A program made the translations under genes and the position numbers. A DNA stretch of 64,000 nt from an uncultured Bacteroidales bacterium. GTDB taxonomy: Bacteria > Bacteroidota > Bacteroidia > Bacteroidales > Bacteroidaceae. The stretch lies in the NCBI GenBank assembly GCA_945833885.1, contig CAMAFY010000005.1:1-64000 (forward strand), given 5' to 3'. Of this stretch, positions 6,415-62,434 are shown piece after piece; the first letter of the stretch is position 1; each line of letters begins with the position of its first letter. The notes beneath the pieces were generated by a model. The model did no database searches, was not told where the DNA came from, and saw only the letters and a program-made list of their open reading frames with translations.

Positions 6415-6570
6415 AAAATACCGCAGTTTATGGTGTTAAGTTCCGTACTTTACGGTGGAAAGTTCCGATGTCTATGACAGAAAGTGCGGCACTTTTGAAG
6501 GTCATGTTCTGCTGATTTCCATACAGATGCACAGACTGAAAATGCCGGGTTGCGGAATTTAGGAAGCAGG
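6415..6570. repeat. 22-bp tandem array (palindromic-core type)
   Basis: Seven or so units with boundaries at 6437, 6459, 6481, 6503, 6525 and 6547. Unit cores include AAGTTCCGTACTTT and AAAGTGCGGCACTTTT; the latter is a perfect dyad around AAAGTGCGGCACTTT. There are no spacers. The array lies about 220 bp upstream of the antitoxin-like gene. Confidence 0.8.
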
Positions 6571-6742
6571 ATTGTTGATGTGCAGGTCGGATTTTTGGCG
6601 GAAATACTGAAATGACTTCCAGATATCTCCTGCGATTCCTTTACCCGTTGTATTTTGATGGTTGGAAATCAAAAAGAGGCTTTCTCGTCGCTTCTTTGAT
6701 AAAGAAAATCATAAATCGTTGTTTTTTCTCGGATTTTCTGAG

Positions 6743-6750
6743 TAATTTTG
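6743..6750 (+). promoter_or_regulatory. Promoter -7 box of the 6791-7737 operon
   Basis: TAATTTTG, 40 bp before the ATG at 6791, leaving a leader of about 34 nt. A TTG at 6719-6721 may serve as a weak -33 element (21-bp spacing). Confidence 0.5.
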
Positions 6751-6790
6751 CAGAATAAAATATGAACTTGTTGAGAAAAAGAGATAAGAT

Positions 6791-6985
6791 ATGGCATTAC
6801 CGATAGCATCCATACCAGTATTGACTGGTGAAGTGGCTCAGAGATTTGAAGAGCAGGCACAGGCAAACTACCAGCGCTATCTTAGTCGTACAGAAGAGCA
6901 GAAGAAGGCAGACGAGGCAATTCTTGAAAAGAAATTTGCCGAGTTGTACAGTATGTTGTCAAAGGCTCATTTGGGAAGAAGATGA
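6791..6985 (+). CDS. Small antitoxin-like protein upstream of a GNAT gene
   Basis: 64 aa, mostly helical and charged (EEQAQANYQRYL, EEQKKADEAILEKKFAEL), with no signal peptide. Its stop overlaps the start of the following GNAT acetyltransferase frame by ATGA, so the two were translationally coupled. Small helical genes directly in front of GNAT toxins are commonly antitoxins (TacAT/AtaRT-like arrangement). I infer that role from position and size only, since the sequence lacks an obvious RHH motif. The gene itself is intact although its partner is broken. Confidence 0.6.
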   Translation: MALPIASIPVLTGEVAQRFEEQAQANYQRYLSRTEEQKKADEAILEKKFAELYSMLSKAHLGRR

Positions 6986-7578
6986 GTTTTTTGAAAGAAC
7001 ATTGCTCGCTTTTTTCTGTCAATGAGCCCAAAGAACTTGAAGGTTTCAACTGTGGAGACCTTGACATTGACGAATTTTTTGCCAATGATTGTTTTGGATT
7101 CACCAAGCAATTATTGTGAAAGACCTATTGTTACAGGTTAAATGACAGCCCCGATAAGGTCGTTTGTGCTTTTACTCTTGCCAATGCTGGGGTCAGAGTA
7201 AGCGATTTGCCCAATGCTCGCAGAAAGAAGATTGAGGCTGGGATACCGCATGTCAAAGCATTGAAAGACTATCCTGCGGTATTGGTGGCGAGGTTGGGAG
7301 TATCTTCCGAATTTCGTTCCAAACATATCGGCAGCGATGTTCTTGAATTTATAAAGATTTGGTTCATCGAACCTCTAAACAAGACGGGATGCCGATTTGT
7401 GATTGTCGATGCATATAATACACCATCAACAATGGCGTTTTATGAGAAAAATGGCTTCACGACGGTGTTCAGTACGGAGCAGCAGGAGAAAGAATACCGA
7501 CATCTCTCCTCAGAAACATCGTTGAATACCCGCTTGATGTTCTACGACTTGATGCTGGCAGCAGAGGAATATCGGTAG
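6982..7578 (+). pseudogene. GNAT-family N-acetyltransferase interrupted by an in-frame TGA
   Basis: The frame starts at 6982 (overlapping the antitoxin stop), runs 45 codons to TGA at 7117-7119, then continues in the same frame for 153 codons to TAG at 7576-7578. Across the stop the protein reads like one GNAT domain: CGDLDIDEFF before it; VCAFTLANAG, VLVARLGVSSEFRSKHIGSD (acetyl-CoA binding loop) and FYEKNGF after it. At the stop the family usually has a Gly codon before KTYCY, so GGA to TGA is the simplest change. Either the gene is dead, or the downstream part (first ATG 7207) is made as a truncated protein lacking strand 1. It would have acetylated an amine, as toxins of this type acetylate aminoacyl-tRNA. 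Confidence 0.82.
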
Positions 7579-7608
7579 GAGGTTGTGTGAATAATAGAGA
7601 ATGACTGG

Positions 7609-7737
7609 ATGACGAGTGATTCGGAGTTGCAGTTATTATCTGAATTTCCAGCAACAGACGGTCTCGTATTCCGGACTTCCAACGTGGTTATTCACGGAAA
7701 GAAAGCCAAATTGATGAAGTTTTTGAAGGAAATATAA
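7609..7737 (+). CDS. Very small hypothetical ORF at the end of the GNAT operon
   Basis: 42 codons from ATG 7609 to TAA 7735-7737 (MTSDSELQLL...KLMKFLKEI). An AGGAGG lies at 7577-7582, too far from this ATG but 8 nt from an in-frame ATA at 7591, so the original start may have been there and mutated. The ORF sits before a strong terminator, in the operon's orientation. The peptide has a plausible globular composition but I do not recognise it. It could be a remnant of a third operon gene. Confidence 0.35.
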   Translation: MTSDSELQLLSEFPATDGLVFRTSNVVIHGKKAKLMKFLKEI

Positions 7738-7761
7738 AACCTTCATCCTGACAATACTAAG

Positions 7762-7808
7762 CATGCAGGCAAATGAATCTCAACCATTCATTTGCCTGCA
7801 TGTTTTAT
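7762..7808 (+). terminator. Strong terminator of the antitoxin/GNAT operon
   Basis: A perfect 17-bp stem: CATGCAGGCAAATGAAT (7762-7778) with ATTCATTTGCCTGCATG (7786-7802), 7-nt loop, then TTTTATTT. It closes the 6791-7737 unit. Confidence 0.85.
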
Positions 7809-7859
7809 TTTCTAATGTTCTGTGCTGCAGTCTTGATCAGACGGATAAGGAAATGTGGC

Positions 7860-7905
7860 GGATTATTCCGATGTCTATGTCCCGAAGTGCGGCCCTTCTT
7901 TTCCC
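7860..7905. repeat. Two-unit copy of the 22-bp element at 6459-6502
   Basis: TTCCGATGTCTATG followed at 22-bp spacing by AAGTGCGGCCCTT, mirroring two consecutive units of the array at 6415-6570. The rest of 7803-8139 shows scattered similar words but no gene. Confidence 0.5.
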
Positions 7906-8139
7906 CTTTTCAGCGCAACTTTTTCAGGCTGCGGAAGGCTGCGGGAGACAGGCCGGGACTTCCGCTTCTGAAGGGGCGAAAGAAAGAGAGGCAGATGTCG
8001 GAATTGCGGAGAACGGATGCGGCACTTTGACCATGAATCTGCCAAGGAGAGGAGAACGGGGACAGGCTTCTGGGTTTGCGATTTCCGGACAAACTGTGCG
8101 CGGAATTCTGAAGGCCATGTGCTGCAGAACGACAAAAAT

Positions 8140-8180
8140 ATCCCCGCAGACAGGAATCGGAAAAATTGGTCTGCGGGGAT
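8140..8180 (-). terminator. Terminator of kbl
   Basis: ATCCCCGCAGAC (8140-8151) pairs with GTCTGCGGGGAT (8169-8180). The minus strand continues into a T tract (TTTTTG). It lies 46 bp past the kbl stop and also has T's on the plus side, so it may work both ways. Confidence 0.75.
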
Positions 8181-8226
8181 TTTTGGGAGTAAATGCCGAC
8201 GTTCTCTCAGTCGGCTTCTGCAAGGC

Positions 8227-9414
8227 TTATTTCAGCACACCGAGTTCCTTGCCGACTTTGATGAATGCGGCGATGCACTTGTCGAGGTGTTCGCGCTCGT
8301 GTGCTGCGGAAATCTGTACGCGGATGCGGGCCTGACCCTGGGGAACGACGGGATAGAAAAATCCGGTGACATAGATGCCTTCCTCCTGAAGTGCGGCGGC
8401 GAAACGCTGCGAGAGGGGAGCGTCGTAGAGCATGACGGCGCAGATGGCGCTCTGTGTGGGCTTGATGTCGAATCCGGCCTCCAGCATCTTGTCGCGGAAA
8501 TAGTTGACGTTTTCAACGAGTTTATCGTGGAGGGCGTTGCTCTCGCGGAGGATATTGAAGGTCTCGATGGCGGCACCGACAACCGAAGGCGGGATGCTGT
8601 TGGAGAAAAGATACGGACGACTGCGCTGGCGAAGCATGTCGATGATCTCCTTTCGACCGGTGGTGAAGCCTCCGACAGCGCCGCCGAATGCCTTGCCAAG
8701 TGTGCCGGTATAGATGTCGACACGCCCGTAAGTGTTGTAGAATTCGCTTACACCGTGGCCCGTTGCTCCGACCACTCCGGCGGAATGGCTCTCGTCGACC
8801 ATGACGAGTGCGTCATATTTCTCGGCAAGTTCGCAGATCTTGTCCATAGGAGCGACGTTTCCGTCCATGGAGAACACGCCATCGGTGACGACAATGCGGA
8901 AGCGTTGTGCCTGCGCGGCTTGAAGTTGGCGCTCAAGGTCTTCCATGTCGGCGTTGGCATAACGGTAGCGGACGGCCTTGCAGAGGCGTACACCGTCGAT
9001 GATGGAGGCGTGGTTGAGGGCGTCGCTGATGATGGCGTCGTCCTTGGTGAGCAAGGGTTCGAACACACCACCGTTGGCATCGAAGCAGGCAGCATAGAGG
9101 ATGGTGTCCTCAGTGTGGAAGTATTCGCTGATGGCTGCTTCGAGTTGCTTGTGCAGGTCCTGGCATCCGCAGATGAAACGTACGCTCGACATACCGTAAC
9201 CGCGGCGGTCCATGGCGTCCTTTGCGGCCTGGATGAGGCGGGGATTATTGGAAAGGCCAAGATAATTGTTGGCACAGAAGTTGAGAACTGTCTTCCCGCC
9301 GACGCTGATTGCGGCTTGCTGGGGGCCTTCGATGAGACGTTCGTTCTTGTAAAGGCCGGCTTCGCGGATGGAAGCAAGTTCATCCTGGAGATACTTTTGG
9401 AAGTTTCCGTACAT
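8227..9414 (-). CDS. kbl: Glycine C-acetyltransferase (2-amino-3-ketobutyrate CoA ligase)
   Basis: PLP-dependent alpha-oxoamine synthase fold, 395 aa, full family length. It cleaves 2-amino-3-ketobutyrate with CoA to glycine and acetyl-CoA in threonine breakdown. The PLP lysine is K241 in TGTLGKAFGG; D207 and H210 in VDESHSAG and the FCANNYLGL substrate segment are present. No threonine dehydrogenase (tdh) lies next to it in the window, so the pathway partner must be elsewhere, or the enzyme acts with a related substrate; a paralogous serine palmitoyltransferase is less likely given the very close kbl motifs. Cytoplasmic. It stands as a single gene with its own terminator. Confidence 0.95.
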   Translation of the reverse strand: MYGNFQKYLQDELASIREAGLYKNERLIEGPQQAAISVGGKTVLNFCANNYLGLSNNPRLIQAAKDAMDRRGYGMSSVRFICGCQDLHKQLEAAISEYFHTEDTILYAACFDANGGVFEPLLTKDDAIISDALNHASIIDGVRLCKAVRYRYANADMEDLERQLQAAQAQRFRIVVTDGVFSMDGNVAPMDKICELAEKYDALVMVDESHSAGVVGATGHGVSEFYNTYGRVDIYTGTLGKAFGGAVGGFTTGRKEIIDMLRQRSRPYLFSNSIPPSVVGAAIETFNILRESNALHDKLVENVNYFRDKMLEAGFDIKPTQSAICAVMLYDAPLSQRFAAALQEEGIYVTGFFYPVVPQGQARIRVQISAAHEREHLDKCIAAFIKVGKELGVLK

Positions 9415-9445
9415 GGTGAGTGAGATTTTTAGGTAATTACGGAGG

Positions 9446-9453
9446 CAAAATTA
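9446..9453 (-). promoter_or_regulatory. Probable -7 box of kbl
   Basis: Reads TAATTTTG on the minus strand, 32 bp ahead of the ATG at 9414. No TTTG at 19-20 bp spacing. Confidence 0.45.
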
Positions 9454-9504
9454 CGGTGTTTTTTTCAAATTCCTCCCTCATTGTACAAAAAAATAAAGAA
9501 AAAT

Positions 9505-9535
9505 TTTGCGAAAAATTCATCTTGATGTATCTTTG
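9505..9535 (+). promoter_or_regulatory. Full-consensus Bacteroidota promoter facing a gene-free stretch
   Basis: TTTG (9505-9508), exactly 19 bp, then TATCTTTG (9528-9535). The predicted start is near 9542. The next plus-strand gene begins only at 10847, so it may drive an untranslated RNA. A hairpin AACGTCGG-ATTC-CCGGCGTT with a short T tract at 9679-9701 could end a transcript of about 160 nt. Confidence 0.6.
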
Positions 9536-9599
9536 CCAACATCGGAAGGTGCAAAGGATAAGGTGAAGTTCTGCAAAAGACCTCCGTAAAATCCGTGGA

Positions 9600-9750
9600 A
9601 TTCTTCCTTCGTTTTCCCGTCATGGCATAACGTGAACAGTTTTCACTTGTTTCCGTCCTGCCCATCTGGCTTAACGGAAACGTCGGATTCCCGGCGTTTT
9701 TCACGCTCGACAAAGAAAAGATTTCCTTTGCTCTCGCTGGTGGGTGTCGC
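9600..9750. repeat. Diverged copy of the dispersed repeat at 497-700
   Basis: CTTCGTTTTCCCGTCATGGC, CTGCCCATCTGGCTTAACG and CACGCTCGACAAAGAAAAGA match segments of 497-700, though in a different order. The rest of 9760-10440 shows no gene I can support; short ORFs on both strands lack coding character. Near 10150-10230 there is a weak direct repeat (CTACTTTYTTAC). Confidence 0.5.
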
Positions 9751-10535
9751 CCCCATCGCGACCGCATCTTTCCGCATATCTTGAAAAACACATTCGGACA
9801 ATTCTTGTTTGAAGGCGGCAGGTATGCCGGGTTTTTCCGGCAACTCCGGCAGATCGCAGACACATGGTTGCGTGGGATGTGCCGCTGTTCGTGTGCCTGT
9901 ATCGGCACAAATACGTCTTGAAGCGGGAACCGTCTGCAGCGTAGAGCCCTTTTCTTTTTCGCCCTCGCCTATGCTTGGACGCTGTATCCTGCACGGCCAT
10001 GGCGGCTTTCAGCCCCAAACGTTGCCTGAGTCTTTTGCCTCTGCCCGTTTCCGGAACTGTAGTTCCCGTGCGGTCAGATGGAAATCCGTAGTTCCGCACA
10101 AAGGTCTTCCCCTTGTTCTTCATTACTCTCCCTTCCTTTTCCCGGCGCCGTTCTCTGAATATTTATACGCTACTTTTTTACGTACTACCGCTACTTTCTT
10201 ACAAATTACCGCCACGGAAAAGCAAGGATGCAGGTTTTTGACGACCCTCGGGTTGACGTTTCAGCCCGTTTGTGCGCACCGCCTTTCACTGACCTTCCCG
10301 ACATGCAGTAGGAAGTGTTTCAGCACTTTACACCTTTTACTCTCCTCACTACTACCAACCCCGTGCAAAAGTCTGCCCCCGCAAGCGTGCGAGAGGCAGG
10401 ATTATGCAGTTTCTCCATACCAAAGTTCCGTAAAGTGAGTGTATGGAGCACGTTCAAAGAAATAAGCACTTTGGGATTTCAAAAAAGCAAATAGCGACAA
10501 AATGTCAATAAATTATGCGAAAAAGACAATATTTG

Positions 10536-10567
10536 TTGGGAATTCTTTCCGAAAACCCCTAATTTTG
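10536..10567 (+). promoter_or_regulatory. Promoter of the SusC/SusD operon
   Basis: TAATTTTG at 10560-10567 matches the -7 box; TTG at 10536-10538 is a weak -33 element (21-bp spacing). It implies a leader of about 270 nt before the SusC start. Confidence 0.5.
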
Positions 10568-10627
10568 CAAATTGTAGCGCAAAGTATTTTGAACAGAACG
10601 AAGTCCCGAAAGAACAAAAACAGGAGC

Positions 10628-10716
10628 AGAAAACAGTTGTGATGCCGTTCACAGGCTGTAAAAAAGGGATTTTATACGTCAAAAAAGCCCCCATTCCCAT
10701 ACTTGGGAGACGGGGG
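10628..10716 (+). other. Two hairpins in the SusC leader
   Basis: One hairpin pairs ACAG/CTGT and TGTGA/TCACA at about 10628-10652. A second pairs CCCCC and TCCCA (10688-10699) with TGGGA and GGGGG (10704-10716) around a small internal loop. No T run follows the second, so it is more likely a folded leader than a plain terminator; attenuation is an inference. Confidence 0.4.
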
Positions 10717-10846
10717 TCGAATGTACGGAACGCTGCAAGTATTCCGTCTGAAACGCATATATGGCACCGCGCAACCGGAATGCCCGGGTCATAATAGCAG
10801 TATAAAATATCAGCAACAAGCATAAAATTAGCAAAACAGGTATAAT

Positions 10847-13800
10847 ATGTCAAAAAAAATGACGCTTCTGCTGGCCGGAATGGCGGTTTCCGCCGGTACA
10901 GCCTTTGCCCAGAAGCAAGTCACAGGTACCGTCGTCGACACAGACGGCGAGCCCGTCATCGGTGCGAATGTCATCGTTGAAGGTACGGGTATCGGTGTGA
11001 CGACAGACAACAATGGCCATTTCGTGATCAAAAATGTTCCTGCCAAGGCCAAGCGACTTGTCGTCACATACATTGGTATGGAAAAGAAGACCGTCAGCGT
11101 TTCTGCCAACGTCAAGATTGTGATGTCCATGGCCGATAACACCTTCGGCGAAGTTGTCGTGACGGGTATGCAGAAGACTGACCGCCGTCTCTTTACCGGT
11201 GCTACCTCGAAAGTGGATGCTGAGAAGGTGAAACTCGATGGTGTGCCCGACATCAGCCGCGCCCTTGAAGGACGTGTGGCAGGTGTCAGCCTTCAGAACG
11301 TCTCCTCTACTTTCGGTACCGCCCCCAAAATCCGCGTACGTGGTGCAACCTCCATCTATGGTAGTTCAAGCCCGCTGTGGGTGGTAGACGGTGTGATTAT
11401 GGAAGACGCCGTCAGTGTCAGTGCCGATGACCTCTCGTCGGGAGACGCCGAGACCCTCATCTCGAACGCCATCGCCGGACTTAACCCTGACGATATCGAG
11501 AGTTTCCAGGTCCTCAAGGACGGTAGCGCCACCTCCATTTACGGAGCACGCGCCATGGCAGGTGTGATTGTCATCACCACAAAGAAGGGACGTGCCGGAC
11601 ATAGTTCCATCAACTACACCGGTGAATTCACCTATCGCCGTAAGCCCAGTTACAGCGAGTACAACATCTGTAACTCGCAGGAACAGATGGGTATCTACCG
11701 CGAAATGGAGAAGAAGGGATGGCTCGAACTGGCATCGCTTGCCAACAGTTCCACCTCCGGTCTCTACGGACAGATGTACACACTTATTGACCAGTACAAC
11801 AAGACGAACGGACAATTCGGCCTCCCCTATACGGAGTCTGCCATGAACGCTTACCTCCAACAGGCTGAATTCCGCAACACTGACTGGTTCGACCTCCTCT
11901 TTGATAATAATATTATGCACAACCATTCCGTCAGCATTTCTACGGGTGGTGACAAGGCAAGCCTCTATGCTTCGCTCTCCGCAATGCTCGATCCGGGATG
12001 GAGTAAGGACAGTGAAGTGGACCGTTATACCGCAAATGTGAACGCCACCTTCAAAATTTCGAAGTGGGTGTCTCTGACCATGCGTACCAATGCCAGTTAC
12101 CGTAAGCAGAAGGCTCCCGGTACTCTCAACAAGAGTGTGGACGTGGTAAGTGGTGAGGTGAGCCGCGATTTCGACATCAATCCCTTCAGTTACGCCCTCA
12201 ACACCTCGCGTACACTTGACCCCAACGCAACATATACGCGTAACTATGCTCCGTTCAATATCTTCCGCGAACTTGAAAACAACTTCATCGACATCAATGT
12301 GATGGACATCAAGTTCCAGGGTGAACTGTCCTGGAAGCCTATCCAGGGCCTGGAAATCAACGCCCTCGGAAGTTATCGTACCAACCAAAGTAACCGCGAA
12401 CACGATATTCTCAATGAGTCGAACCAGGCAGAGGCTTACCGTGCTGGTGTGGACAACCCCAACATCATGTACAGTAACCCCTATCTGTACCTAGACCCTG
12501 ACAAACCAAACTCGCTGCCTATCTCCGTCATGCCCACGGGTGGTATCTATATCCTCAACCGTAATGCCGTGACACAACTTGACTTCCGTGGCACTATCCA
12601 ATACAATAATGCCTGGAACAACACGCATATCTTCAATATCATGGGAGGTATGGAGGCTAACCGTGCCGACTACGATGCCAGCGAGCAGGGCGTTTATGGC
12701 GTAGACTTCAACAACAGCCGCCTGCAGACCATCACTCCCGAATTCTACAAACAACTTAAGGAGGAAGGAACCTCCATCAATTCCTTTGCAAAGAGTTGGA
12801 ACCGCCGTATGGCTTTCTTCGCCAACGCCGTTTACTCTTACAAGGGCCGCTACACCATCAACCTGACCGGACGCTACGACGGCTCCAACCAACTCGGCCG
12901 TTCCAGCAAGAGCCGCTGGCTGCCTACTTGGAACGTTTCCGGTTCTTGGAACGCACATGAGGAGGAATGGTTCCGCAACTGGTCCATGTCCACCAACAAT
13001 GCTTTCAGCCATGGTACAATCCGTCTCAGTTATTCTCTTGTAGGTGAGCAGAGCGCCGCCTCCAATGCCCTCGCCATCTTCCGTGCCGCCAACATCTGGC
13101 GTCCGCAAGGCGACCAGCAGGAGACCGCCATTTATCTCTCACAGTTGGCAAACAGCGAACTGACTTACGAAAAGAAGAACGAATTCAACGTAGGTGTGGA
13201 CCTCGGATTTGTGGACAACCGCATCAATCTTGTTGCAGACGTCTACTGGCGTGAGAACTTTGACCTCATGGGTTACCTCAATACTCAGGGCGCAGGCGGC
13301 GAAATCCGTAAGTTCGCCAACGTCGCTTCCATGAAATCCAAGGGTTTCGAGGCAACTCTCTCCACTCATAACATCCGCACACCGGAATGGCAGTGGTCGA
13401 CCGACTTCACCATCGCCTACTGTAAGACCGAGATTACCGACCTCCTTTCCCAAAGCCGTGTCATCGACCTCGTGTCCAGCAGCGGTTTCGCCCGCGTAGG
13501 CTATCCTCACCGTGCCCTCTTCTCCATTCCGTTTGTCGGCCTGAACGACGAGGGTATTCCCCAGGTTATCAACGAAAAGGGCGAGGTCACCACTTCCGAC
13601 ATCAACTTCCAGGAGTTCGAAAGCCTTGACTTCCTGAAATATGAAGGTCCGACCGACCCGACCTTCACCGGAGGTTTCAACAACGCCTTGAACTGGCGCA
13701 ACTGGCATTTGAACGTCTTCATCACCTACTCCTTCGGTAATAAGATTCGCCTTGAACCGGTCTTCTCGGCAGCATATTCCGACATGAGCGCCATGTCTAA

Positions 13801-14173: not shown

Positions 14174-14294
14174 TCAGGCTATTACGGTTTCTGTCAATCA
14201 TCTCTGTGGCATAGTGCCGCGGAAGACAGGGAAAAGCGTTGCGGTTGTGCCGGCCATTCGCTCCGGCACCGTGTAAAACTCCCGCTCATCCCTC

Positions 14295-14471
14295 CTTGCA
14301 GTGTTCCACTTCCTACCTTGCAGGTTTGAAATTACGCCTTGAAAGGATTGGAAACTTCCCTTGAAAAGTTTGAAATCACACCTTGAAAGGATTACAAACC
14401 ATCCCATATAGGGTCAGGCTTTCCTCTTTAAGGATTTTCACTTCCCTCCTTATGGTGTTTCACTTCCCTCC
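14295..14471. repeat. 22-bp tandem array between SusC and SusD
   Basis: Eight units: starts at 14295, 14317, 14338, 14360, 14382, 14405, 14428 and 14450 (21-23 bp each). Early units begin CTTGAAAGGATTGGAAAC; the last two share TTTCACTTCCCTCC exactly. The array lies inside the operon, ending 94 bp before the SusD start, in the 391-bp spacer 14174-14564. Confidence 0.82.
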
Positions 14472-14564
14472 TTATAATATTATATATAGGAGTGAAGACA
14501 ACGGAAGAACGGCACCCTGATGATGAATGATACAAACCAAAACCACAAAAAGAATTATCTGAAC

Positions 14565-20924: not shown

Positions 20925-20988
20925 TTCTTGAAATTATGAAATTTGTTTCCGAAACTCTGAAATAGGGTTCCTGAAACGATGATATGCC
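20925..20988. repeat. Short 22-bp tandem array (three units)
   Basis: Units start at 20925, 20947 and 20969, each carrying a TGAAA word at the same phase. It lies between the stop at 20907 and the terminator at 20989. Confidence 0.55.
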
Positions 20989-21120: not shown

Positions 21121-21297
21121 ATAACCGTACAACCTCTTTAGCGAACCCGTACAAGCCATGTTTCGAACTCGCATCCCCCCTTGTCATGACCCCCCACGCC
21201 CCCTTTTGCGAACCCGTACAAGCCCTATTTTGAACTCGCATCCCCCCTTGTCATGAACCTACAACCCCGGTTTTTTAATCCTCACAATCCTGTCGCG
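21121..21297. repeat. 22-bp tandem array with a 67-bp higher-order repeat
   Basis: Units start at 21121, 21143, 21165, 21188, 21210, 21232, 21255 and 21277. Units 2 and 3 (GAACCCGTACAAGCC; GAACTCGCATCCCCCCTTGT) are repeated as units 5 and 6, so a three-unit block was copied. It is noncoding. Confidence 0.82.
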
Positions 21298-21369: not shown

Positions 21370-21435
21370 GAAAGTTCCGATGTTTCCGCTGCAAACTTCC
21401 GCATTTTCATGCTGAAAGTTCCGATGTTTTTCTGT
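21370..21435. repeat. 22-bp tandem array (GAAAGTTCCGATG type)
   Basis: Units start at 21370, 21392 and 21414: GAAAGTTCCGATGTTTCC, CAAACTTCCGCATTTTC, GAAAGTTCCGATGTTTTT. Same core as the arrays at 43124, 51129 and 32066. The remaining bases of 20908-22017 show no gene. Confidence 0.75.
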
Positions 21436-26747: not shown

Positions 26748-26771
26748 AATGTTTGAAATATGTTTCTTTTT

Positions 26772-26904
26772 TGTGAATATCGTGGGAATGGTCGGCGAAT
26801 ATCAGGGATGTTTCCTGCGGATATCGGGGGAGTTCTCAGTACGTTTCGGGGAAATTTCCTGCGGGTTTTAGGGAAAAATCCGGGGAGTTCCAAGGATGAT
26901 ATTC
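26772..26904. repeat. 22-bp tandem array upstream of glyS
   Basis: Six units start at 26772, 26794, 26816, 26838, 26860 and 26882, five of them exactly 22 bp. Conserved positions include GATATCGGGG and TTTCC at the unit end. It begins 25 bp before the glyS start, so it lies in the leader or promoter region. Confidence 0.85.
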
Positions 26905-26950
26905 GGGTATTCTTTTGGATAACGTGCTGTAAGAACCCTATTTATCGGAG

Positions 26951-27043: not shown

Positions 27044-27179
27044 GCGTTTTAATCGTATGAAGCAAAGATTGTTTTCTCTTAATTTTCCTTGTTTTTCCGT
27101 TCTCTTTTCTTGTGATTTATGTGAATGAGTGTGGATTTGTTCGTGAATGGGTGTGGGATTACTCGCGAAAGATTGCGGA

Positions 27180-27698
27180 TTATTCCGCGCCTTTCGCCTG
27201 TGCCAGCGTGTCGACGTTGATGGCGATTCTGCGGTTTTCGTCCGCCAAACGTGTCGGAGTCATCGGAGCGGACTCTATTTTTGCCGGGTCATTGACGTTT
27301 TCTGTGGCGGTGGCGTATTCGGCACGTTCAATGGGTTCGATGATGTTCGTCATATAGGCGCGGTACATACTGCTGCCGACGAGCGCCACGACCGCCACAG
27401 CGGCAGCGGCGCGTCCCAATGGTTGCAGGCGTTGGCTCAGCGTCATCTTGCGGGCCTTCACGTGCTTCGGATCGCTTTCCACGGTCATTCCGATGCGCTG
27501 CATCAGAAGTTCGTCGAAACCGTTGCTGGTCTTTTCCTCCTTTTCGGCGTCTGCGAGCATGAAAATGTCGGCAAACGGTGCCAGATGGGCGGGAATTTCA
27601 TCTTGTGAGAAGAATATCCTCAGGATATTTTCCTCGGCCTTGCTGGTAGTGGCATCAAAGTATTTGTCCAGCAACTGTTCGATGTATTTATAATCCAT
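27180..27698 (-). CDS. Putative anti-sigma-type membrane protein
   Basis: 172 aa from MDYKYIEQLL at 27698, or two residues longer from 27704. The N-terminal helices (YIEQLLDKYFDATTSKAEEN) are cytosolic; one membrane helix (AAAAVAVVALVGSSMY, about 95-115) is followed by a short outer segment. The start overlaps the end of the ECF sigma gene by about 11 bp, so translation is coupled. Size, topology and coupling fit a partner of the sigma factor, but the usual anti-sigma zinc motif is absent, so the role is inferred. Confidence 0.72.
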   Translation of the reverse strand: MDYKYIEQLLDKYFDATTSKAEENILRIFFSQDEIPAHLAPFADIFMLADAEKEEKTSNGFDELLMQRIGMTVESDPKHVKARKMTLSQRLQPLGRAAAAVAVVALVGSSMYRAYMTNIIEPIERAEYATATENVNDPAKIESAPMTPTRLADENRRIAINVDTLAQAKGAE

Positions 27699-32040: not shown

Positions 32041-32197
32041 GTGCCGAAGTGCCGCATTTTGGCTTGAAAAGTTCCGTATTTTCGCCTTGAAAGCGCCGCA
32101 TTTTCGCCTTGAAAGTTCCGCATTTTGGTTTGAAAAGTGCCGCATTTCATCGAAGAGAGTGCCGCACTTTCTCCTGGGAAGTTCCGTATGCTTTTAC
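32041..32197. repeat. 22-bp tandem array upstream of yidD
   Basis: About seven units: 32041, 32066, 32089, 32111, 32132, 32154 and 32176, mostly 22 bp. Cores are GAAAGTTCCGCATTTT, AAAAGTGCCGCATTTC and GAGAGTGCCGCACTTTCTC; the last is close to a palindrome. It begins 129 bp before the yidD start. Nothing else is seen in 31913-32240. Confidence 0.85.
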
Positions 32198-34657: not shown

Positions 34658-34680
34658 GGTGTGGATGTCGGCGGATGCCG

Positions 34681-34902
34681 GTGTATTCTATGAATGTTTT
34701 TGGTAGGATTTCCGGATGCTTATAGTAGAATTTCCTGATGCTTATAGCAGGATTTCGGGATGTCCATAATCGGTTTTCCGGATGCTTATCTTTGAATCTC
34801 CGGATTATGATGTCCGGATTTCCGGATGCTTATAGCAGGATTGCTGGAAAACTTATGGCCAGCGTAGGGGAGAATATGGGGAATTATCCGGAAGAGTTTG
34901 TA
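34681..34902. repeat. 22-bp tandem array upstream of the DUF4271 gene
   Basis: Units start at 34703, 34725, 34747, 34769, 34791, 34812, 34835, 34857 and 34880. The shared word is GGATTTCCGGATGCTTATA. Two units are 21 or 23 bp. It fills the space between the LOG gene and DUF4271. Confidence 0.85.
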
Positions 34903-36925: not shown

Positions 36926-37306
36926 AAAACAGAATAAGTTTTTTGGGGTGGGATGCCACCTTTCAGGTTACAAACTGCGAGGACGCTGCGTTGTATACCA
37001 GTTTCCTTGCCTGACTTTCTGTGTGCGTCGTGGGCGCTTCCGGATGTATTCCTCCGATGTCGCTGCCTTACCGCAAAGCGGTACTCACTGCAAACGTACA
37101 CAAAAAAACTGTCCGCCCTGGCATCTTCGACGGCTCTTTTTGCGGAGAGTCCGCCGTGCGGGGGAGAACAGCAACGTGAAACTTGCCGGCCTTGCGGGCC
37201 TGTTGGACGGAACTCTGTGGAGAGTGGCGTCCGGCGTTTTAGCATTTTTTTGCGAGGTTGCAAGCAGTCAAATCTGTCCTCTATGTGGGTTGTGCATGCA
37301 AAATTA
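36926..37306 (-). promoter_or_regulatory. Long metK leader with a -7 box
   Basis: A minus-strand TAATTTTG box sits at 37299-37306, implying a leader of about 365 nt. Near the start codon the RNA can form GGTGG-CATC-CCACC (36948-36961 region). I could not match the SAM-I, SAM-II, SAM-III or SAM-IV consensus, so regulation by SAM is only a possibility. Nothing else is seen here. Confidence 0.35.
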
Positions 37307-37780: not shown

Positions 37781-37903
37781 ATGCCGCATCGGGGCATCCG
37801 TCAGCAGACTTGTCGGGATGTCCTTCTCTCCGGTCCAGGGTTTTCTGCGCGGGAGTCCGGTAAAACGGCGAGGTGTTCCCAGACTTCCGGATGGAGTTTC
37901 TAT

Positions 37904-38080
37904 GATGCTTTCAAAGAAATCCTCAGTCGTTTTCAAAGAAATCCTCAGTCGTTTTCAAGGAAATCCTCAGTCGTTTTCAAGGAAATCCTCAATCACTTTC
38001 AAAGAAATCTCAGTCGTTTTCAAGGACTTCTTCGAGTGCTTTTACGGGATTCCTCAGATGCTTTCTGGGCATTCCTCTTG
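37904..38080. repeat. 22-bp tandem array between tsaE and the next gene
   Basis: Very regular units start at 37904, 37926, 37948, 37970 and 37992 (all 22 bp bar one of 21), each with TTTCAAGGAAATCCTCA or one change from it. It then decays through units around 38013, 38035 and 38056. The 82 bases to the next start code show only weak continuation. Confidence 0.9.
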
Positions 38081-38162
38081 AGTTTTCAGGGGGAAATATT
38101 GTTCTTTCAGGAGATTCCATACAATCTTTTCAAGAGATGCTTTATAATATTAATATTGTAAG

Positions 38163-42241: not shown

Positions 42242-42475
42242 GTTTTCAAGTGCTTATCCTTGAATTTGCCTCAAATGTGTTTGTGCTTCCAGTCAGTCGT
42301 TCTTGTGTTTCTTGTCGGTTCTCCTTGCACTTTCCATCGTGTTTCCCTGTGCTTGCAAACAATCATCCTTGCGTTTTCAATCCATCTTTCTTCTGCTTTC
42401 AGCGGAATCCTGTTGCATTTTCTGCAGAATGTCTCAGCGTTTTCAGCGGAACGTGTTGCGTTTTCGGGAGAAGTC
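42242..42475. repeat. 22-bp degenerate tandem array at the 3' side of msrC
   Basis: About ten units with CGTTTTCA or TGCTTTCAGCGGAAT starts and a CTTG-type end. The last ones are clearest (TGCTTTCAGCGGAATCCTG and CGTTTTCAGCGGAACGTG). The period is 22 or 21. It abuts the msrC stop and lies between two converging genes, not upstream of one. Confidence 0.7.
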
Positions 42476-43034: not shown

Positions 43035-43211
43035 ATGGAATTTCCGCACTTTTCGGTATGGAGTGTTGCGCTCTGCGATGTCGGGTGCCATACTTTTGCC
43101 CCAAAAGAGCCGTGGTTTGAGGTGGAAAGTTCCGCACTTCCGTCCCGAAAGTGCCGCATTTTGTGCTGTAAAGTTCCGCACTTTGTGCTGGAAAGTTCCG
43201 ATGTTTCCGAT
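43035..43211. repeat. 22-bp tandem array upstream of msrC
   Basis: The four clearest units start at 43124, 43146, 43168 and 43190: GGAAAGTTCCGCACTTCC, CGAAAGTGCCGCATTTTG, GTAAAGTTCCGCACTTTG, GGAAAGTTCCGATGTTTC. Looser units extend left to about 43035. Same core as at 6415, 21370, 32041, 51129 and 62347. Lies in 42963-43275. Confidence 0.87.
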
Positions 43212-44355: not shown

Positions 44356-45432
44356 TTAGAATGAGAGCCGGCGCGTGAAACCGATGAGAAAGCAATGGTT
44401 CCAGGCGTGACGGTCGAGGTGGTTGACGCGGCTTTGGCGGATATCGGCGCCGTAACCTGCCACAATGTAGGCCTTACGGACGGGAAAACGCAGGGTGGCG
44501 TCCAAACGTAGGGAGGGAACATTCCCGGGATAGGTGAAACGGACATTGCCGTCGTAGTGCCCTAACGAGAAGATTTCGTAGTACGACTGCCCATATTGTG
44601 GCGAAAACATCAGTCCTGCCAGCGGAGACTCTGCGGAAATGCGGGCGGAACATCCCTTCCCGAACATCCGGAATGCGTAGTCTGCCACCACCATGGCGCG
44701 GACATCGAAGGCGGCGCGCCCCTGTGCCGGGTTGTTTCCGTTGCGTGTGGAATACGTTCCTCCGGTGTTGATGCCGGCAATTCCCCCGGCGCGCAGCCGC
44801 CAGTTCGGAGAAAGTTGCCAATTATACTGCCATCCGAAGTGGAATTCAACGTTTCCATCGTAGAAATCGGCGTTCTTCGCCTGGTTTTCCGCCCATGTTC
44901 CGTCCACGTCGAGGCGCAGGAATGTGATGACGTTTCCGTTTCCCCAGCGTGCCGTGCCCTCGTTCTCCATGGAAAGTCCGGCAGAGGGACCGTTGTAGTC
45001 GAGCGGTGAGAGGTAGGAATCGTAGAGGGCGTTGCCGCCGATGCGGAAAATCCAGGTGCGTCCTACCGTCCTTCTCTGCGCGTTTTCCGTGCTTTTCCCA
45101 TGTGCATTTGCCGTGCTTTCCAGCGTGTTTGCCACACTTTTCTGCGCGTTTTCAGCGTTTCCTCTCATGTTTTCCGCGCTTTTCCCATGTGCATTTGCCG
45201 TGTTTCCTGGCGTTTTTGCCGCACTTCCCAACGCATTTACTGCATTTTCCATCGCATTTGTGGCACTTTCCAACACATTTACTGCATTTTCCATCGCATT
45301 TGTCGTGCCTTTTTCCTGTGGACAGGCAGCATCCGCCAGTAAATACTTTGCATTTTCCTGCGCGTGCGCCGTGCTTGCCGGCCCGAAGAAGGGCAGGAAG
45401 AGTAGCGGAAGGGGGAGGATGCGGTGGAACAT
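44356..45432 (-). CDS. DUF3316-type outer-membrane-like protein with a heptapeptide repeat insertion
   Basis: 358 aa, signal peptide about residues 1-24. Residues 43-119 are an Ala/Asn/Glu-rich stretch of 7-residue units (NAMENAV, NALGSAA, ANAHGKS, ENAQKSV) made from a 21-bp DNA repeat. After RTVGRTWIFRIGGNALYDSY the rest (about 125-358) is a beta-barrel-like DUF3316 domain with alternating aromatic strands ending FLIGFTRRLSF. Function unknown. The insertion looks like the intergenic arrays of this chromosome carried into a frame; the 21-bp period preserves it. Confidence 0.82.
   Translation of the reverse strand: MFHRILPLPLLFLPFFGPASTAHAQENAKYLLADAACPQEKGTTNAMENAVNVLESATNAMENAVNALGSAAKTPGNTANAHGKSAENMRGNAENAQKSVANTLESTANAHGKSTENAQRRTVGRTWIFRIGGNALYDSYLSPLDYNGPSAGLSMENEGTARWGNGNVITFLRLDVDGTWAENQAKNADFYDGNVEFHFGWQYNWQLSPNWRLRAGGIAGINTGGTYSTRNGNNPAQGRAAFDVRAMVVADYAFRMFGKGCSARISAESPLAGLMFSPQYGQSYYEIFSLGHYDGNVRFTYPGNVPSLRLDATLRFPVRKAYIVAGYGADIRQSRVNHLDRHAWNHCFLIGFTRRLSF
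45076..45306. repeat. 21-bp tandem array inside the DUF3316 gene
   Basis: Plus-strand units such as GCATTTTCCATCGCATTTGT (twice, 42 bp apart), GTGCTTTCCAGCGTGTTTGC and GCGCTTTTCCCATGTGCATT, mostly 21 bp. The words resemble the 22-bp array at 42242-42475. It encodes residues 43-119. Confidence 0.85.
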
Positions 45433-46948: not shown

Positions 46949-47170
46949 GGATGATTTCCGCCGGAGAATTCGCGAAAACTATGGTGAAAACCGATAGGAT
47001 ATGGGGATGGTTCCAAGAAGGAACAGAGATGTCTCTAATGTGAATTTGGGGTGGCTCCAACGGAAAACTGCATTGTTCCGAAGGGTAAATGCGATGATTG
47101 CGATACGAAGTCGCGGTGATTCCGATGTGAAACCGGGGTGAATTCGATGGAAAGTGATGAACGAAGACGG
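46949..47170. repeat. 22-bp tandem array upstream of the GHL10 gene
   Basis: Exact 22-bp units start at 46971, 46993, 47015, 47037, 47059, 47081, 47103, 47125 and 47147. The shared words are GTGATTCCGAT and GGTGGCTCC. It begins 30 bp before the TTG start of the GHL10 gene and runs to the end of the TPR gene. Confidence 0.88.
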
Positions 47171-47958: not shown

Positions 47959-48145
47959 AAATCCTCGGAGGAAAGCCTGGAAACAGCGGAGGATGCTAAG
48001 GGTAAACGCGGGAAAGATGCGTTGAAAACGCGACAGGTGGCGGGTAAACGTCCGGAAGACCGTGGGTGATTATTCTGCAGGTGGCGGGTAAATATACCGT
48101 CAATGGTGGGTAAACGTCCGGAAGGCAGCGGGTGGAAATGCTGGG
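47959..48145. repeat. 22-bp tandem array upstream of the TPR gene
   Basis: Units start at 47959, 47981, 48003, 48025 (20 bp), 48045, 48067, 48089, 48111 and 48133. The best units share TAAACGTCCGGAAG and end GGCGGG or GTGGG. It starts 39 bp before the TPR start and ends at the recX stop. Confidence 0.87.
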
Positions 48146-48679: not shown

Positions 48680-48940
48680 GGGTGTGTGATCCGATGTCTA
48701 CGTATCCGCGTTGCGAATATTCCGTCTCACCGCCACACATTCTATGTCGGACCGTCCCGCGTTTTTGTTTGACCATACCGCAGTTTCTGTCCGACCATCC
48801 CGCTTTTTCTGTTTGACCGTCCTGCAGTTTATACATAGCCGTCCCGCACCTTATATATAATTAAGACACGGTTTCATGTAAAAACGTTACGGCTTTATGG
48901 ATGAAAGTTGCGTGTTTTGTCGATGAAAACGCGGAAAATC
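48680..48940. repeat. 22-bp tandem array upstream of recX
   Basis: Units start at 48746, 48768, 48790, 48812, 48834, 48856, 48879 and 48900; most are 22 bp. Shared words: TTTGACCATACCGCAGTTTC and TCCGACCATCCCGC. Earlier units with ATCCGATGTCTACG fit the same phase back to about 48680. It begins 50 bp before the recX start and reaches the stop of the next gene. Confidence 0.87.
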
Positions 48941-51128: not shown

Positions 51129-51304
51129 AGAAAGTTCCGATGTTCCGATTGAAAAGTTCCGATGTTTCGGGCGGAAAGTTCCGATGTTTCCAGTCCGTTT
51201 TGCGGAGGTTTCCAGAAGGCTTTGCAAGCCCTGGGGAACACGCTGCAAAGATTTGCAAAGCGTGTGCAACGATTTTCAAAACACGCTGCAGAAACTTGAG
51301 GGCC
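51129..51304. repeat. 22-bp tandem array upstream of the GT4 gene
   Basis: Eight units in exact 22-bp phase: 51129, 51151, 51173, 51195, 51217, 51239, 51261 and 51283. The first three carry AAAGTTCCGATGTTTC; later ones drift to GCAAAGATTTGCAAAG. It starts 32 bp before the GT4 start. Nothing else is seen to 51416. Confidence 0.87.
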
Positions 51305-52541: not shown

Positions 52542-52717
52542 TTGTTTGGTGTGTTGCAATCCTTTATCCAGTGTGTTGTGACACCCTGTTTAATGCGTGG
52601 CAACATTTTACATGAATGGATGCTGCCCGGTGTATAAAGGATGGCGGTATCTTGTTTGAAGGATGGCGGAATCTTATGCCTGAGGCGGTAAGACTTTATG
52701 CCCATGTCCGCCGTTTA
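52542..52717. repeat. 22-bp tandem array upstream of dusB (eight exact units)
   Basis: Units start at 52542, 52564, 52586, 52608, 52630, 52652, 52674 and 52696, all 22 bp. They share TGTTT or TAT at the start and a TGG word near the centre; the fifth and sixth share AAGGATGGCGG. It starts 88 bp before the dusB start. This is the most regular array in the window; nothing else is seen in 52455-52757. Confidence 0.9.
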
Positions 52718-54594: not shown

Positions 54595-54662
54595 TTGTAT
54601 GGTATATACTAAGGTTTTTATGGGAAATTCGGGATGTCCTGCCGGTATCCGTTGTCATTTTG

Positions 54663-54790
54663 CATCGTTAATGCAGCCCATGCGCATCGTTAATACTGCC
54701 CATGCGTAACGTTAATGCAGTCCATGCGCATCGTTAATGCTGCTTCTTTTACATCGTTAATGCAGCCCCATGTGCGCCAGGTTCGCGTCG
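54663..54790. repeat. 22-bp tandem array upstream of ribF
   Basis: Units start at 54663, 54685, 54707, 54729 and 54752 (the last two 23 bp). Each has ATCGTTAATGCAGCCCATGC or a variant. It lies between ribF and the U32 gene, both minus. Confidence 0.9.
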
Positions 54791-56540: not shown

Positions 56541-56550
56541 ATTTCGGGTG

Positions 56551-56581: not shown

Positions 56582-56598
56582 GAAATTACTATATAATT

Positions 56599-56629: not shown

Positions 56630-56710
56630 CGGCTTGAAATTGCGCGCACTTTTGCTTTTTCTCCGCACGTCCTAAGGCTGTTTGTCCGCATTTCCCTCAA
56701 TGAATATAAG

Positions 56711-57457: not shown

Positions 57458-57565
57458 TGTCCGACGGTACGGCGGAGCGTTCCCCCGGTGTCGGTATTCC
57501 TCTTCGGAAGCGATGCTCTTTTATATGAAAATATTCGATGAAACCGCGAGTTTTAATGTAATTTT

Positions 57566-60442
<2,877 letters not shown>

Positions 60443-60588
60443 AACTTTTTAGCACCATCCTTGAGAATGCCGTCGCTTCCCCGGCGTTCCATGGCATCGG
60501 GCATCCGAAAATCCCCGGGGCCAGGATAAAATCCCCCAAATCGGAATATATTTTTTACTAACCTTTATATAATAATCACCAAAATTCT

Positions 60589-62139
60589 ATGTTTGAAGGA
60601 CAACCAAAAGGCCTTTGGGCTCTTGCGCTTGCCAACACCGGTGAGCGCTTCGGCTACTACACGATGTTGGCCGTCTTCCTCCTCTATCTCCAAGCAAACT
60701 TCGGATGGGAGCCGGGAGTTGCCACTATAGTCTACTCCACTTTCCTGATGATGGTCTACTTCCTCCCCGTCATCGGCGGTGTCGCCGCCGACAGATTCGG
60801 CTTCGGCAAGATGGTCACCACTGGTATCATCATCATGTTCCTCGGATATCTGCTGCTCTCCCTCCCCCTTGGTAGCGACGTCACTGCTGTAGCGGCCATG
60901 GGAATTGCCCTGCTTCTCGTCAGCCTTGGCACGGGATTGTTCAAGGGAAACCTGCAGGTGATGGTCGGTCGTCTGTATGACGAGGAGAAATTCTCCGACA
61001 AACGCGACAGCGGTTTCTCGCTTTTCTATATGGCCATCAACATCGGTGCCATGTTCGCTCCCACCGCTGCCATCGAAATCATGCGTTATGCCCAGGAGGA
61101 ACTCCAAATCAGCGTAGCCGATTCTTACCACTTCGCCTTCGCTGTGGCGTGTGTCAGCCTGATTTTCTCCATCTTCATCTACTACATCTTCCAGAGTACG
61201 TACAAGCATGTGCTCGCGTCTGAAAAGAAGACCGTAGCGAAGGACGAGGACTCTGCCAAGGTTGCCGCCCCCGCCGCCCCCGAACTTTCCAAGGAGGAGA
61301 CCAAGGAACGCATCGTTTGCCTCTGCCTTGTCTTCGCCGTTGTCATCTTCTTCTGGATGGCTTTCCACCAGAACGGCAACACTTTGACGCTCTTCGCCCG
61401 CGACTACACCCAGACCACTTCCGAGGGTATACAGAGCATGGCGTTCGACGTCACCAACCTTGTTGCGTGCATCTTCATCGTTTACGGCCTCTTTGGTCTG
61501 TTCCAGAGCACTACCGGTAGCGGCAAATCCGTGTCCGGACTCGTGATTCTGCTTGCCGCAGCCTTCCTCGGTTACAAGTATTATACCCTTGATGGCGCCG
61601 TAAACATCGAGGCTCCCATCTTCCAGCAGTTCAATCCCTGCTACGTCGTTGCCCTTACTCCTGTGAGCGTTGCCCTATTCTCGTGGCTCGGAAAGAAGGG
61701 TAAAGAGCCTTCAAGCCCCAAGAAGATAGGCCTTGGAATGCTCGTTGCCGCCTTGGCATTCTGCCTGATGGCAGCGGGTTCCATGGGACTTCTCCAGCCT
61801 ATGGATCAGGCTGAGGCCATCAAGGGTGCCGCCGATCCCGCCCGCGTGAGCGCCAACTGGCTCATCAGCACCTATCTTGTCCTCACCTTTGCCGAACTCC
61901 TTCTCTCGCCCATCGGCATCAGTTTCGTCAGCAAGGTGGCTCCTCCCAAGTATGCAGGTCTGATGATGGGCCTCTGGTTTGCCGCCACCGCCATCGGAAA
62001 CCAACTCGTGATGGTGCCTGGAATCCTGTGGGGTGCAAACGTAAACCTTGTCGTCATCTGGGGCGTGCTTGCCGCCATCTGCCTCGTTTCGGCACTCTTC
62101 ATCTTCAGCATCCTCAAGAAACTCGAGAAGGTGGCTTAA
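60589..62139 (+). CDS. POT/PTR-family proton-dependent oligopeptide transporter
   Basis: 516 aa, 12-14 membrane helices (MFS fold). The N-terminal ExxERFxYY motif is present as NTGERFGYYTML (residues about 15-26); GTGLFKGNLQVMVG and DSGFSLFYMAINIGAM are POT family motifs. A long loop with acidic EETKERIVCLC splits the halves. Imports di- and tripeptides with protons; fits with the proteolytic SusCD and M6 genes in function, though it is not linked to them. Terminator behind it at 62252. Confidence 0.94.
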   Translation: MFEGQPKGLWALALANTGERFGYYTMLAVFLLYLQANFGWEPGVATIVYSTFLMMVYFLPVIGGVAADRFGFGKMVTTGIIIMFLGYLLLSLPLGSDVTAVAAMGIALLLVSLGTGLFKGNLQVMVGRLYDEEKFSDKRDSGFSLFYMAINIGAMFAPTAAIEIMRYAQEELQISVADSYHFAFAVACVSLIFSIFIYYIFQSTYKHVLASEKKTVAKDEDSAKVAAPAAPELSKEETKERIVCLCLVFAVVIFFWMAFHQNGNTLTLFARDYTQTTSEGIQSMAFDVTNLVACIFIVYGLFGLFQSTTGSGKSVSGLVILLAAAFLGYKYYTLDGAVNIEAPIFQQFNPCYVVALTPVSVALFSWLGKKGKEPSSPKKIGLGMLVAALAFCLMAAGSMGLLQPMDQAEAIKGAADPARVSANWLISTYLVLTFAELLLSPIGISFVSKVAPPKYAGLMMGLWFAATAIGNQLVMVPGILWGANVNLVVIWGVLAAICLVSALFIFSILKKLEKVA

Positions 62140-62251
62140 GCCTTTCATGGCATTCCGTTGATGGAATGCGTTGGAATAAGGTGAAAAGCCCCCGCGAAAA
62201 CCGATGAAACATATTTGCTGTGGCGACATGTGAATGCCACTGTGACAAATC

Positions 62252-62290
62252 ATCCCCCGAATGGCCTGACGCTCATTCGGGGGATTTTTT
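62252..62290 (+). terminator. Terminator of the POT gene
   Basis: ATCCCCCGAATG (62252-62263) pairs with CATTCGGGGGAT (62274-62285), then TTTTT. Confidence 0.85.
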
Positions 62291-62346
62291 CGCTCCCTGC
62301 CTGCCAGGCTTCCGGTATCTTGGCAGGAATGTACCAGCGTCTCGCT

Positions 62347-62434
62347 GGGAAAGTGCGGATGTTCAGGGTGGAAACCTCCGATGTTACGACTGAAAAGTGC
62401 GGCACTTTGCGGCGGGAAATGCCGATGTTCCTGA
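62347..62434. repeat. 22-bp tandem array between two converging genes
   Basis: Four exact units start at 62347, 62369, 62391 and 62413. The third, TGAAAAGTGCGGCACTTTGC, contains a perfect palindrome AAAGTGCGGCACTTT. This is 3' of both flanking genes, an exception to the upstream rule. Confidence 0.85.

Follow-up and report, generated by a model that had tools for sequence, protein, structure and literature searches.

Evenly spaced, species-private arrays of phased dyad units in the intergenic DNA of an uncultured Bacteroidaceae bacterium: probable platforms for a dimeric DNA-binding protein

The window analysed here is a stretch of 64,000 nt from contig CAMAFY010000005.1 of an uncultured Bacteroidales bacterium of the Bacteroidaceae (assembly GCA_945833885.1, 3.11 Mb in 89 contigs; its genome is called G000 below). 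Its intergenic spacers contain head-to-tail arrays of 22-bp units, which fall into two classes. The units of class A share a degenerate 15-bp dyad that recurs in strict register, most often four times, in arrays spread evenly along the chromosome; the units of class B are specific to their locus and lack the class A motif. We consider it probable that the class A arrays serve as platforms on which a DNA-binding protein, dimeric and sequence-specific, assembles cooperatively.

A preliminary description of the window had listed 22-bp repeats at 18 places (6415, 14295, 20925, 21121, 21370, 26772, 32041, 34681, 37904, 42242, 43035, 46949, 47959, 48680, 51129, 52542, 54663 and 62347). A 300-base stretch at each place was compared over lags 8 to 39 with 1000 dinucleotide-preserving shuffles, and the repeats were confirmed, with P=0.001 at 15 places and P=0.003 at 21121, 47959 and 62347. 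Lag 22 was the best lag at 17 of the 18 places, and at 47959 it tied with lag 21. The best repeat of the 20925 stretch lies at 21125, i.e. at the next listed place, and 20925 itself has no separate confirmation; the best repeat of the 46949 stretch sits at 47084. When 22-base windows with at least 16 matches were counted, lag 22 ranked first over the whole window (349 windows), followed by lags 44, 66 and 87. The same description had predicted an intergenic autocorrelation peak at lag 22, and this was found. In a 464-kb sample of G000 (the window together with twenty 20-kb stretches, genes being called by a home-made, non-standard hexamer caller), lag 22 again came top, with 2117 intergenic windows versus 0.4 in shuffled sequence (mean of 5 shuffles). 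Lags 44, 66 and 88 gave 1957, 954 and 853 windows, and lag 110 likewise stood far above the shuffles. Only 3 lag-22 windows were located inside genes. Among spacers of at least 100 bp, 80 of 225 carried a signal at lag 22, 44 or 66, versus 0 of 225 in a single shuffle.

The arrays had been taken as one family; this had to be revised, since six multi-unit arrays of the window share a motif (class A) and the others do not (class B). That sequences differ between loci is correct for class B, but class A units have a common core, which escapes the eye because half-sites and linkers vary. The class A consensus, AAASWNCSGNWSTTT, is a dyad of 15 bp centred on a C or G, and the 7-bp linker after it carries little information. 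The flanking half-sites, 7 bp each, are of the types AAAGTNC or AAACATC, and the arms of the commonest pair, CAT/GTT, are not alike (20 such pairs observed versus 8.3 expected). Exact matches to the core numbered 69 in intergenic DNA and 0 in coding DNA of the 464-kb sample, while genome-wide there were 400 exact sites compared with 4 for a reversed control pattern. A DNA query covering one window array (32047-32186) had 41 genome matches, self included.

The register of the units is strict, with 167 unit pairs at 22 bp and 3 at 23 bp, all other distances between 15 and 43 bp being empty. Units located 22 bp from an exact site, with no match required of them, showed a core identity of 0.70-0.71 and a linker identity of 0.38-0.40; at offsets of 20, 21, 23 or 24 bp the values were instead 0.25-0.40 and 0.24-0.29, respectively. 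Thus, the class A core has been kept and the linkers mostly lost. Across different loci linker identity was 0.28, near background (the core figure of that comparison is inflated by the site definition).

Chains were built from units with at most 3 mismatches around a site with at most 1. In 837 kb of the genome, non-coding chains of one to eight units occurred 19, 4, 5, 47, 9, 5, 2 and 1 times, respectively, so that four units is the usual size (47 of the 73 arrays of two or more units); the 14 class A sites in coding DNA were all singletons. The ends of the four-unit arrays are distinct: the GTT half-site was found at 4 of 94 outermost versus 71 of 282 inner positions (P=2.1e-6). In the 248-bp flanks of 37 class A arrays, no common sequence was detected outside the 81 bp, and five flank pairs matched each other locally, one of them over 200 bp.

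Class A arrays are evenly spaced along the chromosome (single-site arrays were left out of spacing tests, except where both versions are reported). The complete contig C1 (391 kb) contains 35 arrays of at least two units with a mean gap of 11.3 kb, a coefficient of variation (CV) of 0.43 and a minimum gap of 4.3 kb. Random intergenic placement gave a CV of 1.11 and 12.8 gaps below 4 kb, and 0 of 5000 placements were as even as observed. The pattern persisted for arrays of at least three units (CV 0.59, P=0.0004) and against four nulls allowing one array per spacer, including one restricted to spacers of at least 500 bp (null CV 0.72-0.90, 0 of 4000 as even). For contig C2, P was 0.024 against intergenic placement. 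When C1, C2 and the window were pooled, the 49 gaps had a mean of 11.6 kb and a CV of 0.45, with one gap below 4 kb; the four nulls gave CVs of 0.71-0.88, with 0 of 5000 as even. As a descriptive figure, the variance-to-mean ratio of array counts in twelve 20-kb stretches was 0.69. Scaling from 73 arrays per 837 kb gives an estimate of about 270 class A loci in the genome.

Spacers that bear arrays on C1 are long (median 814 bp versus 288 bp). Among spacers of 400 bp or more, with or without an array, arrays were present in 16 of 24 between convergent genes, in 39 of 95 between tandem genes and in 10 of 32 between divergent genes, a preference for convergent over divergent positions (P=0.014). 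The median distance from an array was 486 bp to the 5′ side of a gene and 245 bp to the 3′ side; lying farther from gene starts than from gene ends speaks against a function as promoter operators. A segment of 7.9 kb without called genes (C1:372700-380571; L048, L178) lies inside the longest array-free gap of C1 and may hold ribosomal RNA genes.

The class A motif is private to its species. G000 contains 160 copies of a stricter core, AAAGTNCSGNACTTT, which is present once each in 2 of 57 other genomes of the genus and absent from the other 55. The wider motif has 2, 0 and 1 sites in three relatives, G041, G042 and G043, versus the 400 of G000; the two near relatives among them (RibF 76 and 78% identical) contain 2 and 0. 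Relatives possess arrays of their own, in which, read by eye, cores are kept and linkers varied. G002 carries TTTCACASTGTGAAA at 21 bp, with three units in 8 of 9 chains (104 exact TTCACASTGTGAA sites versus 0 for the control), and G007 carries TAACCCTASGGTTA at 22 bp, mostly in four units. In G008 dyads with matched arms around GCAAGC/GCAGTG repeat at 21 bp, some whole arrays being inverted-symmetric, and G010 contains several dyads at 21, 22 and 23 bp. Other motifs were found in G009, G011, G050, G051, G016 and G022, some known from one array, and the 22-bp units of G041 do not form clear dyads. Depending on the species, arrays occur every 7 to 40 kb. At looser detection, the spacing test gave a CV of 0.39 (P=0.0046) for G007 and 0.43 (P=0.0086) for G008. 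For contig C15 of G002 the result was marginal (CV 0.43, P 0.04-0.05, seven arrays). Array positions are not kept between species: among 33 syntenic spacer pairs of at least 60 bp, arrays were present in both species in 1, in one species in 17 and in neither in 15, so that 1 of 18 occupied pairs was shared (a further 98 pairs in which a spacer was shorter were not counted, and some spacers enter more than one species pair).

The samples behind these comparisons are small and unequal, at 5 to 153 kb per relative versus 464 kb for G000. Pieces below 6 kb (L086, L088, L091, L096) were dropped, as was L094 (the first 20 kb of G067 C1), treated as a duplicate of G041 C1; L097 (5.6 kb) was kept. Among same-genus genomes with usable stretches, 12 of 26 had 5 or more intergenic windows per kb at a lag of 21, 22 or 23. 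Arrays are nearly absent from the genomes sampled from 16 other families of the order, of which 0 of 16 reached this level (92.8 kb of intergenic DNA; the best, G029, had 16 windows). G042, whose genus is not stated, gave 6 windows per kb at lag 21, a value to be read with the caution that heptamer repeats yield lag 21 as a multiple.

Three sets of repeats in the relatives stand somewhat apart. Locus L084 of G012, in the same genus, has many 7- and 8-bp tandem repeats in its sampled spacers and not 21-23-bp arrays. At L095 (G068) and L079 (G004), dyads centred on CCGG repeat at 18 bp (TCCGGATTATCCGGATAC, CCGGAAGTTCCGGCAACA), perhaps the same layout in a shorter register. Dyads at L109-L113 (G008), L165 (G023) and L101 (G020) have a common central AGCAC/GTGCT, and their outer arms change in matched fashion (TCTGCA/TGCAGA, TGGCA/TGCCA, TCA/TGA), which could reflect a hairpin constraint or several related proteins.

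From the sequence features of class A we infer a protein that would dimerise, bind cooperatively and act across the chromosome. Each unit would be one dimer site, with two half-sites around the central C or G, and four dimers would usually complete the complex. Because the units are 22 bp (about two helical turns) apart, neighbouring dimers would be on nearly the same face of the helix and able to touch, while the outermost half-sites would differ from the inner ones because they have no neighbour beyond them. The suggestion in the preliminary description that the arrays are binding arrays is thereby supported for class A, through the kept core, strict register, four-unit peak, distinct ends and even spacing. 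Since the platforms are intergenic, occur every ~11 kb and are mutually distant, their most likely role would be chromosome-wide; they might anchor, bridge or insulate stretches of ~10 kb. Even spacing together with the avoidance of gene starts makes chromosome organisation our first choice, and for a protein platform that also has this role we see an even chance. Between species of the genus, protein specificity and sites would have changed together; the register has changed as well, being 21, 22 or 23 bp, and the site number varies between 3 and 5. We propose only tentatively that the genus marks its chromosome every 7-40 kb with three to five in-phase dimer sites, the protein specificity and the sites being replaced between species. 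It is conceivable, to a like degree, that such marking is the bacterial equivalent of fast-evolving systems of chromosome organisation and that a distance between clusters is built into it.

To our knowledge, the bacterial chromosome-organising and self-marking sequences known so far are single motifs. Among the literature matches listed, mostly from outside subscription journals, there was no description of phased, evenly spaced arrays. If the model is correct, phased multi-dyad clusters that are evenly spread and private in sequence represent a new layout, and a DNA-binding specificity would change together with hundreds of sites. This would open direct tests of chromosomal domain spacing and of the replacement of a genome-wide binding code.

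Several observations weigh against this model. Neighbouring units in G000 have linker letters in common (0.38-0.44 versus 0.28 across loci), so tandem duplication took part, and in G002 linkers are partly common to several loci, a hint that the element was copied in that genome. Folded as RNA, four-unit arrays score below shuffled sequence (mean z -2.89, n=47); the palindromes alone may suffice for this signal, and an RNA role for the arrays may also exist. Even spacing is not found everywhere: C2 (11 arrays) was non-significant against the one-per-spacer nulls (P 0.07-0.18), G007 and G008 lost significance at stricter detection (P 0.18 and 0.28), G010 was non-significant at either detection setting, and the last 139 kb of G002 C15 are free of arrays. 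The motif is missing from 1 of 10 G007 segments, and 14 of the 26 sampled same-genus genomes show no clear 21-23 signal (G012 is counted among the 14, as heptamers yield its lag 21). Class B has the 22-bp period without the class A motif or even spacing. Finally, a candidate binding protein was found neither through ParB_N copy number nor among gene families adjacent to arrays, none of which was enriched among 877 genes (best raw P 0.038).

Marking of DNA for uptake, the foremost alternative, could produce a similar picture, as chromosome organisation and uptake marking would both yield private dialects. A surface receptor would then prefer array DNA as a self-recognition sequence, an explanation we regard as unlikely. 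Biased uptake and recombination would keep one array per transforming fragment, the spacing would approximate fragment length and each species would have its own dialect; this mechanism seems to us just as doubtful. Haemophilus uptake sequences show a relatively even spread, are under-represented in coding DNA and can accumulate by molecular drive without a fitness benefit, and uptake-driven accumulation predicts that spread (PMC7811141). Their even spacing has also been read as pointing to a part in replication, repair or compaction (PMC1939737), and dialects of uptake sequences are described for the Neisseriaceae (PMC3630211). Class A arrays share with uptake signal sequences and DNA uptake sequences (USS/DUS) an over-represented, species-specific motif (400 sites in G000), even distribution, intergenic position and the lack of generally common flanks. 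They differ in being far sparser and nearly confined to spacers, with three to five strictly phased dyads per array, whereas known uptake sequences are single short motifs, spaced at ~1 kb in Haemophilus (PMC7811141). A ComEC-type competence protein was detected in 38 of the 41 genomes, G000 included; none was found in the array-bearing G007 (genome 80% complete). As ComEC is equally common in other families, it does not discriminate in favour of uptake. Within the class A core, AAAGTGCGG resembles the Haemophilus uptake sequence core, probably by coincidence, because the motifs of the other species in the genus are unrelated.

The preliminary description had allowed that the arrays might belong to a known published element. 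Repetitive extragenic palindromic (REP) sequences with their REP-associated tyrosine transposases (RAYT) were tested and the BrickBuilt elements of Porphyromonas gingivalis, a minisatellite-MITE family, compared; neither is a good fit. Under the first explanation the arrays would be dispersed repeats of REP or bacterial interspersed mosaic element (BIME) type that a RAYT (Y1) transposase, or some other selfish process, spreads or maintains, the tandem units being a local form; we judge this quite unlikely. REPs are extragenic, palindromic and high-copy, some are species-specific, and most lie between tandem or convergent genes, downstream of coding sequence (PMC3733652), a placement and partial specificity that resemble those of the arrays. 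Further likenesses are the several types per genome and the proximity to gene 3′ sides; G010 has 4 Y1 genes together with several motif types, and the partly shared linkers of G002 also fit. A strict 22-bp register and even spacing are not what REP dispersal predicts; the arrays also stand apart in their tandem register of 21-23 bp and their three to five units, and the presence of RAYT is uncorrelated with that of arrays. In a search with PF01797 across 41 genomes, the sole Y1_Tnp match in G000 was incomplete, covering 39-121 of 121 within a 352-aa frame. No match was found in the array-bearing G002, G011 and G016, drafts that may miss genes, and 13 of 16 other-family genomes had one. Fifteen Y1 gene loci were checked for arrays; of the 11 from the same genus, 2 (L151, L165) have a 21-22-bp array within ~700 bp, and L160 has a 19-bp array. 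The GTAG/CGTC tag is absent from the G000 consensus around the 69 exact matches, where linker columns carry low information. With no tag in the consensus and a transposase that does not track arrays, the REP/RAYT candidate was not supported.

Porphyromonas gingivalis also belongs to the Bacteroidales, and its W83 genome paper reportedly mentions direct repeats of about this size. Its BrickBuilt repeats comprise 19 elements of 1 to 22.8 repeats with a leader and tail carrying inverted ends, and their 23-nt units combine conserved sites with non-conserved ones, most of which fall in one half (PMC4596501). Like the arrays, they are intergenic, dispersed genome-wide and built of head-to-tail units in which one half is less conserved than the other; unlike BrickBuilt, the arrays have no leader or tail, mostly four units and about one locus per 11 kb. 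A leader or tail of BrickBuilt type with terminal inverted repeats was not found in the 248-bp flanks of the 37 arrays.

Class B arrays invite a different explanation. Of 18 inspected, several were homogenised, some had 44- or 66-bp higher-order repeats, and some had diverged edge units that were still in phase. Class B segments are unevenly spaced (CV 1.95 for 20 on C1 and 0.89 for 10 on C2), and neither chromosome organisation nor uptake marking accounts for them. Our guess is that they are local 22-bp tandem amplifications, perhaps of former sites. The fixed-length amplification mechanism of the preliminary description is unneeded for class A and conceivable for class B. Alternatively, the arrays could be minisatellites produced by replication slippage, their period of 22 inherited from few founders and kept by local homogenisation, a view to which we give little credence. 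The homogenisation, higher-order repeats, in-phase edges and uneven spacing of class B agree with it, and the whole-length likeness of neighbouring units expected of variable-number tandem repeats is seen in several class B arrays. It is not seen in class A, which contradicts slippage by its cores and register, kept while linkers were lost, its four-unit peak, special ends and even spacing. Nor does slippage alone confine the period to 22 in sequences that are otherwise unlike: among the best 30 intergenic lags, lags 6-20 had at most 14 windows each. That all array units are palindromes was rejected, as only 10 of 73 Tandem Repeats Finder (TRF) consensus units, class A included, had a palindrome at P<0.05.

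Sites of 13-16 bp with dyad symmetry spread over a replicon are familiar from parS (bound by ParB), NBS (Noc), matS (MatP) and the KorB operator, the last with a central S that the class A core shares. Those are generally single sites conserved among relatives, whereas the arrays are in-phase clusters private to a species. Plasmid iterons are few direct repeats at ~22 bp on one helix face; the arrays resemble them in spacing and differ in having dyad units and ~270 loci, iterons generally occupying one locus per replicon and not being known as dyads.

Other candidates were rejected. A ParB paralogue is not supported: G000 has a single ParB_N match, as do most relatives, whether they belong to the genus or not (exceptions are G006, G009, G019 and G020 with 2-3, and G002, G014, G017 and G035, where none was found). 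A CRISPR array does not fit the heterogeneous units and 7-bp linkers, in place of near-identical repeats with ~30-bp spacers (no cas search was made). Carriage by phage was dismissed: one IMG/VR stretch with two tandem cores proved to be an unrelated ACCGAAC repeat, with two exact sites in a 37-kb record.

The arrays of the window are collected in Table 1; TRF at its threshold picks up only part of them.

Table 1. Repeat arrays of the window, with positions and the methods that detected them
Feature	Position	Strand	Detected by
Class A array, 4 units (22-bp period)	6415..6495	.	motif scan, shuffle test
Class B 22-bp arrays with units of two types (14315-14393; 14419-14474)	14284..14501	.	TRF, lag scan, shuffle test
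Weak repeat pair by listed place 20925, no separate shuffle-test confirmation	20929..20972	.	
Class B 22-bp repeat	21125..21242	.	lag scan, shuffle test
Class A array, 3 units	21371..21429	.	TRF, motif scan, shuffle test
Class B 22-bp repeat	26767..26908	.	lag scan, shuffle test
Class B 22-bp repeat, absent from the earlier list	27104..27191	.	lag scan
Class A array, 6 units	32046..32170	.	TRF, motif scan, shuffle test
Class B 22-bp array, ~6 units	34673..34854	.	TRF, lag scan, shuffle test
Class B 22-bp array, ~5 units, 90% matches	37881..38095	.	TRF, lag scan, shuffle test
Class B 22-bp repeat, weak	42277..42464	.	TRF, lag scan, shuffle test
Class A array, 5 units	43104..43206	.	TRF, motif scan, shuffle test
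Class B 22-bp repeat	47059..47162	.	lag scan, shuffle test
Class B 22-bp repeat, weak; lag 21 equal	48049..48122	.	lag scan, shuffle test
Class B 22-bp array, ~4 units	48738..48864	.	TRF, lag scan, shuffle test
Class A array, 3 units	51131..51189	.	TRF, motif scan, shuffle test
Class B 22-bp repeat	52607..52704	.	lag scan, shuffle test
Class B 22-bp array, ~5 units, upstream of ribF	54640..54768	.	TRF, lag scan, shuffle test
Class A array, 4 units	62350..62430	.	motif scan, shuffle test

A tandem repeat of 21/42 bp at 45221-45303 lies inside a gene (44356-45432, DUF3316), and its period is a multiple of three, unlike that of the intergenic arrays. The window had two Rfam matches; one is a tRNA and the other, at 37229-37287 on the minus strand, a SAM-II riboswitch.

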